From Candidatus Neomarinimicrobiota bacterium (GTDB lineage Bacteria > Fidelibacterota > Fidelibacteria > Fidelibacterales > Fidelibacteraceae), in contig JAGGVO010000018.1 in the NCBI GenBank assembly GCA_021157965.1, forward strand, positions 1 to 34,057: a stretch of 34,057 nt of DNA, in the 5' to 3' direction. The position numbers were made by a program, and so were the translations under genes. The notes below the pieces were generated by a model, which was not told the origin of the DNA, did no database searches, and saw only the letters and a program-made list of their open reading frames with translations. Positions 16,755 to 20,453 of this stretch are shown piece by piece (the stretch's first letter is position 1; the number at the start of each line of letters is the position of its first letter).

Positions 16755-16777
16755 GTCCGATTCATAAAACGACCCGG

Positions 16778-16804
16778 GCCCCGGATTTTTTCCGGGGCTA
16801 TTTT
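16778..16804 (+). terminator. Terminator of the pfp-fba operon
   Basis: GCCCCGG (16778-16784) pairs with CCGGGGC (16792-16798) around a T-rich 7-nt loop, then TATTTT follows. The stem is strong and the T-tract is short, so it is a probable intrinsic terminator. Confidence 0.65.
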
Positions 16805-16842: not shown

Positions 16843-17817
16843 ATGATGAATCATGCCACAAAATCACGTCTTTTTGAAACGCTGGCATATCTCCTGATCC
16901 TCTTTTTTTTACTGATTCATGAATCCGGTTTTAATATTGCAATTCTCAGGTCCCCGGCCATTCTCTTTTCTGCCGGACTCTTTGTTCTCTTAAGGCATGT
17001 TTTTGAAACCCGTGAACGAGTTGATTTTTATGTTTACATAGATACGGTTGTTTTTCTGATTCTGGCGTGGGTGGGGGTAGCGTTGCTTCATACTCTCTTT
17101 TTGCAGAACGGAACAGGATTTTTAAAGCAGACTCTTTTTGTATTCCTGCCTTTAACCGGGCTCTTACTTAATACCAGCCGTCTGGTGCCTCCGTCCCGCT
17201 TGCGCCGCATCTACGGTCTGAGTACTGTTGTTTTCCTGGCAGGTATCTATCATTTAAGCGGACCGGCGCTTCTTTTTCACATCGATCCTGTAAAGCTTAT
17301 AACCCTTTTTGTAGATCAATATTTGGTGAGCCTTTTTTTTCTCTTCCTCTACTTTTTTCTGCCACCCCTGATTCTGTGCATCGGCCGCAATTTGCTGGAA
17401 GATAATGATTTGAGACCTTTCCGGGATTTTATGAAGCTTCTCCTCCCGTTTCAGTCCGTTCTCTATTTTTCACATGCCGCGCTCATTGTAGCCCACAGCT
17501 CCGAAAGCAGCCGGTATATCCTGAGCCATTACCGGATTTTAATTCTCCTTTTCCTTGTCATCATGTTTTTTTGCGGAATCCTTCTGCGAAAACCGGCATA
17601 TAAAGGAATCAAGAAGCATGGAAATGAATTGGGAATAAAAATATTCTCTGCAAGCGGCAAATACAATACCAGGGTGAATTACTCCGGACTCTTGCTCACA
17701 CTGATCGGTGGATTATGGGTATTCAACCGGTTTCCCGACAAATCTATAGGCGGGCTATGGCTTATAATTTCGGGCCTTTATCTGTACAAAACCCTTCAAA
17801 AAAAGGATAAGATATGA
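16843..17817 (+). CDS. Polytopic membrane protein of unknown family
   Basis: A 324-aa protein with roughly nine or ten hydrophobic spans (for example LAYLLILFFLLIHESG near 15-30, FLILAWVGVALLHTLF near 70-86, YLVSLFFLFLYFFLPPLIL near 160-180, and a C-terminal pair around GLLLTLIGGLWVF). No family signature is recognised. Basic residues in the loops (PPSRLRRIYG) suggest topology but no active site stands out. Its stop overlaps the next start (ATGA, 17814-17817), so it is co-expressed with a lipoprotein resembling a metallophosphatase. It begins right after the fba terminator; the ATG is tandem (16843, 16846) with a weak ribosome binding site. Confidence 0.65.
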   Translation: MMNHATKSRLFETLAYLLILFFLLIHESGFNIAILRSPAILFSAGLFVLLRHVFETRERVDFYVYIDTVVFLILAWVGVALLHTLFLQNGTGFLKQTLFVFLPLTGLLLNTSRLVPPSRLRRIYGLSTVVFLAGIYHLSGPALLFHIDPVKLITLFVDQYLVSLFFLFLYFFLPPLILCIGRNLLEDNDLRPFRDFMKLLLPFQSVLYFSHAALIVAHSSESSRYILSHYRILILLFLVIMFFCGILLRKPAYKGIKKHGNELGIKIFSASGKYNTRVNYSGLLLTLIGGLWVFNRFPDKSIGGLWLIISGLYLYKTLQKKDKI

Positions 17818-18920
17818 AAAAAATGATTCTTGTTCTGGTTTTATTCAGCGGGATTTTATCCTGTACTCATCATTCCTCCTCTGCGAATGATTCGGTTAAG
17901 ATAGTAGTGACAGGCAACAGCCGTGCCAAACTGGAACCCTGTGGATGCAGGATTCCTGCGGGCGGATTGCCAAGGCGGATGGGTTTTATTTATTCAATGG
18001 AAAAGGGATGGAGTGATTTCATGAAAATAGAGGCGGGTAATTGGCTTTTTCCTGCTTATAATGCACCTGAAACCGCTCCCCAATCCTGGAAACAAAAATC
18101 CGGCCTGTTGGCAAAAGCCTATGGCGAAGCGCATTATGACGCCATTAATGTTGGGTTTACCGATCTATCCCATGGATATGAGTATTTACTTGAGCTCCAA
18201 AAAGAGAATAAGCTCCCCTTTTTATCTACCAATCTGTTGAATGAAACAGGAGAAACCTTATTCAAACCCTTTTATCTGTTTAACCAAAAGGGTCTTCGCA
18301 TTGCCGTTATGGGAGTCACGTATCTGACGGATGATCAGGCGTCACGCTTTAAATCTCTGACACCTGAAGATGCCATCCGGAAACAACTGCCGAAACTGCG
18401 GAATGAGGCGGATTTAATCCTCATTTTGGCTGATATGCCTCTTGATAAAACAGAAGAACTGGGTGAAACCATCCCTGAAATTGATTTCATTGTCAATTCG
18501 CGGCACAAGGGGAGAACCCAGCTTCCACGGCAGACTGGCGGGAAGGCGGTCTACACATACCTGGGGCCTGATGGTCAGTATGTTGGAATCCTGAAGGTGG
18601 TGTTTAACGCACCCGGGCAGCCTGTCCGGGATATCAGCGGAGCTTATCACCGTCTGGATTTTTCTAAAGGCAGACTGGCGGAATACCGGGAAAGGGCAGG
18701 GGATACTCCCGTGGAAACCTATTATAAAGACAATCCGGGGCTCCTCCGCACGATTCGGGTGTATGAAAAAGAAGTGGAACGGCAGCAATCCATTCTGGAT
18801 ACCACCCAAAACTATTTCATCTGGTCCATGAGACACCTGGATTCGGGTGTCTACAGCCATCCGGAATGGGAAAAAGCTGTTAATGAAGTTCTCATGAAGG
18901 CAGAAGGCGAAAAGAACTAA
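17814..18920 (+). CDS. Lipoprotein resembling UshA-type metallophosphatase, altered metal site
   Basis: A 368-aa lipoprotein with lipobox SGILSCTHH (Cys17). VTGNSRAKLEPCGC (residues 32-45) followed by GGLPRRMGFI corresponds to the first motif of 5'-nucleotidase/calcineurin-type proteins, in the LEPCGC...GGLxRR variant found in some anaerobes. Usual metal motifs are changed: the GD segment reads KIEAGNWLF, and the GNHE motif reads VGFTDLSHG (113-121). LPFLSTNLLNETGE, GLRIAVMGVTYL and IDFIVNSRHKG match later family segments, the last lacking the usual histidine pair. Catalysis is doubtful; it may bind a ligand instead, or use Cys43/Cys45. Translationally coupled to the membrane protein upstream (4-nt overlap). 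Confidence 0.65.
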   Translation: MKKMILVLVLFSGILSCTHHSSSANDSVKIVVTGNSRAKLEPCGCRIPAGGLPRRMGFIYSMEKGWSDFMKIEAGNWLFPAYNAPETAPQSWKQKSGLLAKAYGEAHYDAINVGFTDLSHGYEYLLELQKENKLPFLSTNLLNETGETLFKPFYLFNQKGLRIAVMGVTYLTDDQASRFKSLTPEDAIRKQLPKLRNEADLILILADMPLDKTEELGETIPEIDFIVNSRHKGRTQLPRQTGGKAVYTYLGPDGQYVGILKVVFNAPGQPVRDISGAYHRLDFSKGRLAEYRERAGDTPVETYYKDNPGLLRTIRVYEKEVERQQSILDTTQNYFIWSMRHLDSGVYSHPEWEKAVNEVLMKAEGEKN

Positions 18921-19024
18921 GGGTGATTCTTTCAAAATATGACTGAATGGTGTATATTAACATGCTATTTGAAAAGCGGGTGGAATGGTAAGATCGTATG
19001 TTTTAATGTGAAAGGTAAATTTTT

Positions 19025-19762
19025 ATGAGTGATCAAACACCTGTTATCGAGCTCCAGGATCTTAAGGTGAAGCGCGGTATTCAGAAACTTGAAATATATT
19101 CCATGAAAATCTATCCCGGTGTTTGTTACCATATTTTCGGTCCGAATGGATCGGGAAAATCATTGCTAATGGACGTTTTGGCACACAGGCAGTCTGTAGA
19201 TACCGGGAATATCCTCTATGAAAATAAATCTCTGAAGAAACGGGAATATTCCCAGGCTTTCGTCCGAAAACAGATAGCCTATTTTCAACAAAGACCGACA
19301 GGATGGATTTGTGGGACAGTGCTTTCCTATCTGGAAAAGACACTGAAAGAACGGAAAATCTCTGCAGGAATCGCATATCAGCAGGCAATGGCTAAACTGG
19401 AAGAATTCGATTTGAAGGAATTCGCCAAAGTTAAACGAAGCCAATTGTCCCCCGGTGTTTTTCATAAGGTCGAACTGATTCGTTGCTTATTGCAGAACGG
19501 TGACCTTTTAATACTCGATGAACCTTATAGCATTCCTGATGAAAATTTTATTAAAAAATTTAACAGCTGTTTACGGAATGTCATCCGTAACGAAAAAAAG
19601 GCCGTCGTGATTGCATCAGCCCAAAGCCTGTTCCGATTCAGGCTTGTGGATATTATTCTGAATTTGAATCACGGGCGGATTGTGCGGGTTGAAAAGACCC
19701 GGAAACCCCCAAGGACAGATAACCGGAATCGAAACCGGCATTATCAAAACAATAAACATTAA
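19025..19762 (+). CDS. ABC-type ATPase with degenerate signature and H-loop
   Basis: A 245-aa nucleotide-binding domain. Walker A is FGPNGSGKS (38-46), the Q-loop glutamine is in AYFQQRP (Gln88 or 89), and Walker B is DLLILDEPYS (160-169). The signature LSGGQ is replaced by LSPGV (141-145), and the switch histidine region reads VVIASAQ (194-200) with no His. Canonical ATP hydrolysis may be weak. The C-terminus is very basic (KTRKPPRTDNRNRNR). No adjacent gene is an obvious ABC permease, though the polytopic protein at 16843-17817 is close. Start at ATG 19025 follows AAAGG. It could be a regulatory or non-transport ATPase. Confidence 0.8.
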   Translation: MSDQTPVIELQDLKVKRGIQKLEIYSMKIYPGVCYHIFGPNGSGKSLLMDVLAHRQSVDTGNILYENKSLKKREYSQAFVRKQIAYFQQRPTGWICGTVLSYLEKTLKERKISAGIAYQQAMAKLEEFDLKEFAKVKRSQLSPGVFHKVELIRCLLQNGDLLILDEPYSIPDENFIKKFNSCLRNVIRNEKKAVVIASAQSLFRFRLVDIILNLNHGRIVRVEKTRKPPRTDNRNRNRHYQNNKH

Positions 19763-19787
19763 ACATCATTCCACCCGCCCATATTTT

Positions 19788-20453
19788 ATGATGAAAAAAA
19801 TACCTGTCAATAAATATTCACAATACGGCAAATTTACTAAGCGTCAGAAGATGACGAATACGCTTCGTTATTACGGGATTCGGGATTCCCGGATTCTTGC
19901 TGCTTTTCTTGCGATGCCCCGACATCGCTTTGTTCCCCCTGATCAGGAAGACCGGGCCTATGCCGATACTCCTCTGCATATTGGTTACGGACAAACCATT
20001 TCACAACCTTATGTTATTGCCTTTATGCTTGAAGCCATGGAGCTGAAACCTCATGATAATGTCCTTGAGGTGGGGTCGGGATGCGGTTATGTTACCGCTT
20101 TACTTTCCATGCTGGTAAAAAAAGTGACGGGCATCGAGCTGGAAAAAGCATTGGTAACACGAAGCCGTTTAATCCTGAAAGATCTGGAAATAAAAAATGT
20201 GAGAATTGTCCATGGGGACGGATACCGGGGATTTGAACCCAATGCACCATATGACGGCATTCTGGTCTCTGCAGCACCGGATGATGTCCCGGAGCACCTC
20301 TTTCAACAACTGAAAGAAGGTGGATCACTCATCATTCCCGTTGGCAAATATTCCCAAATGTTGAAAAAAATCAAAAAAAAAGAAGGACAAAGAATCGAAA
20401 CGAACCTGTTGGATGTCCGTTTTGTCCCCCTGAGGAAACCCTCAATATATTGA
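19788..20453 (+). CDS. pcm: Protein-L-isoaspartate O-methyltransferase
   Basis: A 221-aa SAM-dependent enzyme that methylates isoaspartyl residues to start repair of damaged proteins. Motifs: MPRHRFVPPDQEDRAYAD (43-60), IGYGQTISQPYVIAFM (65-80), the SAM-binding VLEVGSGCGYVTALL (92-106), VTGIELEK, and PYDGILVSAAPDDVPEHL. Length is slightly over the usual 205-215 because of a basic N-terminal stretch (MKKIPVNKYSQYGKFTKRQK); an internal ATG at 19851 would remove it. The frame is open further upstream to 19680, but that would overlap the ABC gene by about 80 bp and no signal supports it. It follows the ABC gene by 25 bp, likely same transcript. Confidence 0.9.
   Translation: MMKKIPVNKYSQYGKFTKRQKMTNTLRYYGIRDSRILAAFLAMPRHRFVPPDQEDRAYADTPLHIGYGQTISQPYVIAFMLEAMELKPHDNVLEVGSGCGYVTALLSMLVKKVTGIELEKALVTRSRLILKDLEIKNVRIVHGDGYRGFEPNAPYDGILVSAAPDDVPEHLFQQLKEGGSLIIPVGKYSQMLKKIKKKEGQRIETNLLDVRFVPLRKPSIY

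Follow-up and report, generated by a model that had tools for sequence, protein, structure and literature searches.

UshA-like selenoproteins with a CxU motif, together with their Cys homologues, have been described previously (PMC2398784, PMC9312934, PMC13188914), and the UshA-like PCGU family was among the more frequent selenoprotein families of the Global Ocean Sampling, with 76 sequences (PMC2398784). The family is represented in NCBIfam by NF041198, the “UshA-like (seleno)protein” (UshA_like_PCGU), which is COG0737-like, combines a UshA-type N-terminal domain with a PCG(U/C) motif followed by GG-x-x-R and exists in Cys and Sec forms. To our knowledge no activity has been measured for a protein of NF041198, and we found no function assigned to the family. 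Selenocysteine is costly and its usual place is in redox active sites. Related proteins of known function include the 5'-nucleotidases, such as E. coli UshA and CD73, with their dimetal ligands (DxH, GD, GNHE and a later His), and the thiosulfohydrolase SoxB (TIGR04486), the substrate of which is a protein-bound sulfur group.

The window analysed here is a stretch of 34,057 nucleotides from a Candidatus Neomarinimicrobiota bacterium (contig JAGGVO010000018.1), in which a membrane protein, a putative lipoprotein and an ABC-type ATPase are encoded ahead of pcm (Table 1). The preliminary description had placed these genes on one strand with the first two overlapping, and this layout stands, the overlap being the four nucleotides ATGA. 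The lipoprotein gene is followed by a gap of 104 nt (18921–19024), the ATPase gene, another 25 bases and pcm. Upstream of the membrane-protein gene lie genes for a PPi-dependent phosphofructokinase and a class II aldolase, assigned with Pfam and NCBIfam. The hairpin ahead of the membrane-protein gene is only suggestive as a terminator, since such sites are common by chance in this region, where 15 were found against 5.7 expected. All three genes of interest are under purifying selection, with dN/dS in close comparisons of 0.13–0.19 for the lipoprotein, 0.18–0.25 for the membrane protein and 0.10–0.14 for the ATPase.

Table 1. Features of the locus in window coordinates, and loci of related gene organization in other Marinimicrobia genomes
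Feature	Position	Strand	Description
Terminator-like hairpin between fba and the membrane-protein gene	16777..16799	+	9-bp stem, 7 G-C pairs; tail ATTTTCATGA
Membrane-protein gene	16843..17817	+	324 aa; ~10 predicted helices; genus-specific
Putative lipoprotein gene, UshA-like PCGU family, cysteine form	17814..18920	+	368 aa; NF041198 E 6e-46
Codons Cys43-Gly44-Cys45 (tgt gga tgc)	17940..17948	+	Cys45 codon is TGA in selenoprotein-form relatives
Soluble ABC-type ATPase	19025..19762	+	245 aa; LSPGV signature, no H-loop His, basic C-terminal tail
pcm, protein-L-isoaspartate O-methyltransferase	19788..20453 (start likely)	+	Pfam PCMT 221 bits; TIGR00080 above cut-off
Putative PCGU selenoprotein-rhodanese-MauE/DoxX loci	L063:10376-12470; L067; L114; L116; L118; L119; L123-L128; L130; L131; L133; L134; L138-L140; L144-L147; L149; L150		

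The lipoprotein is, by its sequence, the cysteine form of the already known selenoprotein family with the motif Pro-Cys-Gly-Sec/Cys. The preliminary description did not recognise the combination of genes at this locus; for the lipoprotein this no longer holds, as its best match in NCBIfam is NF041198 (157 bits), which far exceeds the matches to phosphatase models, while a search of Pfam returned no match. PCG(U/C) followed by GGxxR is present as LEPCGCRIPAGGLPR, and relatives hold Sec or Cys at the same column. The score is below the curated cut-off of 275 bits, which only one of the phylum's 245 genomes exceeds, 244 bits being the highest value listed for Sec members; the Marinimicrobia form is thus a diverged clade, and the lipoprotein a diverged relative of the family rather than a member at the level of the model. 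At E 1e-15 the profile matches 229 of the 245 genomes, some of the matches being ordinary UshA proteins. Besides the sub-cut-off score, the lipoprotein differs from the described family in having Cys for Sec, one residue less past the motif, GN for GD, and an overlapping membrane-protein gene upstream. Two further UshA-like paralogues, with open frames of ~490–550 aa, are encoded elsewhere in the window genome (G000:C41:139771-140121; G000:C12:143259-143786) and are presumably true nucleotidases.

The loss of metal ligands and the two-cysteine motif noticed earlier in the lipoprotein were both borne out. The sequence reads GNSRAKLEPCGCRIPAGGLPR, Cys43 and Cys45 included, with GN in the place of the GD of UshA and GFTD in the place of GNHE, and the dimetal ligand set of the 5'-nucleotidases (DxH, GD, GNHE and the later His) is absent. 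In an alignment of 16 members, in which Sec was entered as C, the invariant residues are Cys43, Cys45 (or Sec), Gly50, Gly51 and Arg54. GNHE is changed to GxxD in all 16, and GD to GN in the window's family, the Sec forms keeping GD.

The structure model of the lipoprotein is confident (pLDDT 90.9) and predicts a 5'-nucleotidase fold, for which Foldseek returned UshA and CD73 5'-nucleotidases with E-values of 1e-17 to 1e-15 and TM scores of 0.5–0.65. The likeness to E. coli UshA, CD73 and other 5'-nucleotidases comprises this predicted fold and the region around G114-x-x-D117, whereas neither the metal ligands nor the C-terminal nucleotide-binding domain is present and CxC is gained. SoxB belongs to the same superfamily and gives weak matches to members of the lipoprotein family (22–50 bits), but it keeps its metal site and is ~200 aa longer, and no sox neighbours were seen at the lipoprotein locus.

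If ordinary phosphatase and ABC genes had recently decayed, the contrary case named in the preliminary description, the degenerate motifs would be accounted for. The same changes are, however, shared across the genus, the family and, for the lipoprotein, the phylum, so that its replaced metal site is an old, family-wide property; dN/dS of 0.10–0.25 speaks against decay as well, as does the separate presence of the longer UshA-like paralogues in the window genome. No recent decay was found, and this reading, refuted by the conservation, retains next to no probability.

In most relatives a single in-frame TGA is located exactly at the position of Cys45. Among 60 loci outside the window's family this site is U (TGA) in 54 and C in 5, and one locus was unmatched by the motif search. 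The selA gene is absent in all 19 searched genomes of the window's own family, where the lipoprotein has Cys. Of the 22 other genomes in that search, 20 possess it, and in the two that do not, G023 (f6) and G024 (f7), the gene has no TGA at the Cys45 position. A genome from another family of the same order (G019) possesses selA and yet encodes a Cys form, so the Cys may be older than the loss of selA. SECIS-like hairpins follow the TGA, but they stand out little from shuffled sequences (z about -0.5 to -1.1).

The invariance of the CxC/CxU pair points to thiol or selenol redox chemistry and not to a dead phosphatase, and the PCGU family is probably one of redox proteins rather than phosphatases. 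From the matching loss of motifs in the lipoprotein and the ATPase, a sensing or assembly role instead of catalysis had been proposed, but the invariant Cys-X-Cys/Sec of a selenoprotein family runs counter to that argument. A non-catalytic lipoprotein, whose dead UshA fold would bind a ligand and relay a signal via the membrane protein, would fit the lost metal-ligand motifs and the gene for a membrane-protein partner directly upstream; it fits poorly with Sec at the Cys45 position in most of the phylum, a costly residue normally found in redox sites, and with the many family members, the majority, that have no membrane-protein partner of such a kind. We regard such a sensor or assembly factor as rather unlikely. 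Haem binding at Cys43/Cys45 had also been raised and was rejected, the lipoprotein containing no CxxCH motif.

Further indications of function come from gene neighbourhoods. When the genes around 70 lipoprotein loci were clustered, two recurring neighbour families emerged, a membrane-anchored rhodanese (PF00581) and a MauE/DoxX-like membrane protein (PF07291, PF07681). On the same strand and within 1.2 kb of the lipoprotein gene, MauE is found at 28 of the 60 loci outside the window's family (the fusions at L124 and L139 being counted by hand as MauE-carrying), rhodanese at 25 and both at 25. The linked loci represent 12 Marinimicrobia families and both gene orders, and rhodanese and MauE are fused at L124:5380-6450 and L139:7082-8212. 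With 0–2 MauE genes of the linked kind per genome, well under one case of linkage would be expected by chance. A CGC motif is invariant in the linked MauE-like protein, as are two Cys in the rhodanese. The lipoprotein, rhodanese and MauE/DoxX-like genes of these 12 families thus form a putative operon (Table 1). In the open-access literature no paper was found that links UshA, rhodanese and DoxX, and the association may be new for the PCGU family.

The rhodanese-MauE module, a partner of the lipoprotein in those 12 families, is not linked to the lipoprotein gene in the window's genus. All six genomes of the genus keep a MauE-like gene away from the lipoprotein gene; in G004 a rhodanese gene lies directly ahead of it at a distant locus (L153:4491-5426), and in the window genome the contig breaks off immediately ahead of the MauE gene, on its upstream side (L152:4794-5231). 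An amidohydrolase-like gene adjoins this locus in the genus (L153, L152). The link is not obligatory, since genus g2 of the window's family retains the lipoprotein with no MauE match and the linked pair is absent in several Sec-bearing families (f3, f5, f9, f29). At two other loci the selenoprotein gene is adjoined, on the opposite strand, by a gene for a secreted protein with LIM-like Cys-rich repeats (L068:4081-5283, L066:685-1875).

The neighbourhood also bears on whether Cys43 and Cys45 could bind Cu, Zn or Hg, making the lipoprotein a periplasmic metal chaperone. CxC is a common soft-metal site, it falls here within the stretch that corresponds to the ancestral first metal-binding loop, and the linked MauE is weakly similar (20 bits) to the HvfX family of Cu-RiPP maturation. 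Sec at the second position would nonetheless be unusual for a metal carrier and the linkage to rhodanese points to sulfur, which makes metal carriage improbable.

The genus-specific membrane protein was detected in five of the genus's six genomes and in no other of the 245 from the phylum; the contig of the sixth ends inside the lipoprotein gene (L039), and the sole other match (G070, E 9e-4) runs through six stop codons. In all four other members of the genus that can be tested, its gene immediately precedes that of the lipoprotein, and in the five genomes, the window included, the two genes overlap or are at most 10 nt apart. The conserved co-occurrence that the preliminary description proposed to look for is therefore seen, for this pair, wherever it could be checked in the genus. 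The protein has no relative in Pfam, NCBIfam or PDB, and its structure model, based on five sequences, is poor (pLDDT 52.7). Homology to MauE was ruled out (hhalign probability 1.4%). Its invariant residues are H26, E27, R36, R113, D158, Q159, Y160, H211 and H229; none is Cys, so that a role as thiol relay is not evident. The protein may serve to anchor the lipoprotein or to couple it to the membrane. The three invariant His (26, 211, 229) and the invariant DQY could possibly form a haem or quinone site.

The ATPase resembles ABC ATPases (PF00005, 82 bits) in its intact Walker A (GPNGSGKS) and Walker B (LLILDEP) motifs and differs from them in its degenerate signature, the missing H-loop His and its restriction to a single order; at the 16 loci read, the neighbouring gene is pcm and not one for a permease. 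The reported LSPGV in place of LSGGQ and the absence of the switch histidine hold up, and a degenerate signature without the H-loop His is common to all 16 homologues aligned. At its C-terminus the protein carries a conserved basic tail rich in Arg and Asn, KTRKPPRTDNRNRNRHYQNNKH (window 19694–19759), suggestive of contact with nucleic acid or membrane.

It occurs in 19 of the 245 genomes, all of one order, and its gene is followed by pcm in every locus read (16/16, the window included). At all ten loci read outside the genus it is beside pcm and no lipoprotein gene is present, and the lipoprotein is found in most of the phylum where the ATPase is absent. The gene cluster proposed earlier thus holds for the membrane-protein/lipoprotein pair and not for the ATPase, which, to judge by gene order, is with pcm a unit separate from the lipoprotein; the matching loss of motifs in the two proteins is coincidental, as they were never neighbours at the loci read outside the genus. 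In families f5 and f11, pcm lies 0.3–2.4 kb downstream of the selenoprotein gene on the same strand, without the ATPase (L066, L068, L070, L113, L120-L122, L132), and this proximity is possibly an old synteny.

These data also decide against a single three-part, transporter-like complex of membrane protein, lipoprotein and ABC ATPase. In the genus the three genes do stand side by side in one orientation, but a region of ~12–16 kb is collinear there, so that adjacency says little; the ATPase gene lies beside the lipoprotein gene at none of the ten loci outside the genus, and the 104-nt gap after the lipoprotein gene suggests separate units. Such a complex is rejected on the neighbourhood data and we consider it highly improbable.

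The explanation we hold, with a little more than even confidence, is that two independent units adjoin here: the membrane protein with a Cys-form PCGU lipoprotein of redox or sulfur-transfer function, and the ATPase with pcm. In the first unit, the metal-binding loops of a predicted UshA metallophosphatase fold have been replaced and Cys-X-Cys (Cys-X-Sec in relatives) gained near the former site, the lipoprotein being most likely a periplasmic thiol/selenol oxidoreductase or sulfur-transfer protein. Across much of the phylum the membrane-anchored rhodanese and the MauE/DoxX-like CGC protein would mediate the exchange of sulfane sulfur or electrons between lipoprotein and membrane, and the window's genus probably co-expresses the lipoprotein with the new membrane protein, which would dock it or couple it to the membrane. 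In the second unit, the order-specific soluble ATPase, with its impaired hydrolysis motifs, is probably an ATP-binding switch, which may share a function with protein repair by pcm or be merely adjacent to it.

A broader and more tentative proposal is that a UshA-type phosphatase fold has become a periplasmic selenol/thiol enzyme which, with rhodanese and MauE, might constitute a sulfur or redox relay that is common among Marinimicrobia and has so far gone undescribed, and that in the selA-less genus Sec gave way to Cys and a new, genus-specific membrane-protein partner was acquired. The linkage of this selenoprotein family to rhodanese and MauE is the most useful by-product of the analysis, as it gives a specific, testable hypothesis for PCGU proteins, that of periplasmic sulfur or thiol redox chemistry, and the selA-less lineage offers naturally occurring Cys versions, for whose expression no selenocysteine machinery is needed.
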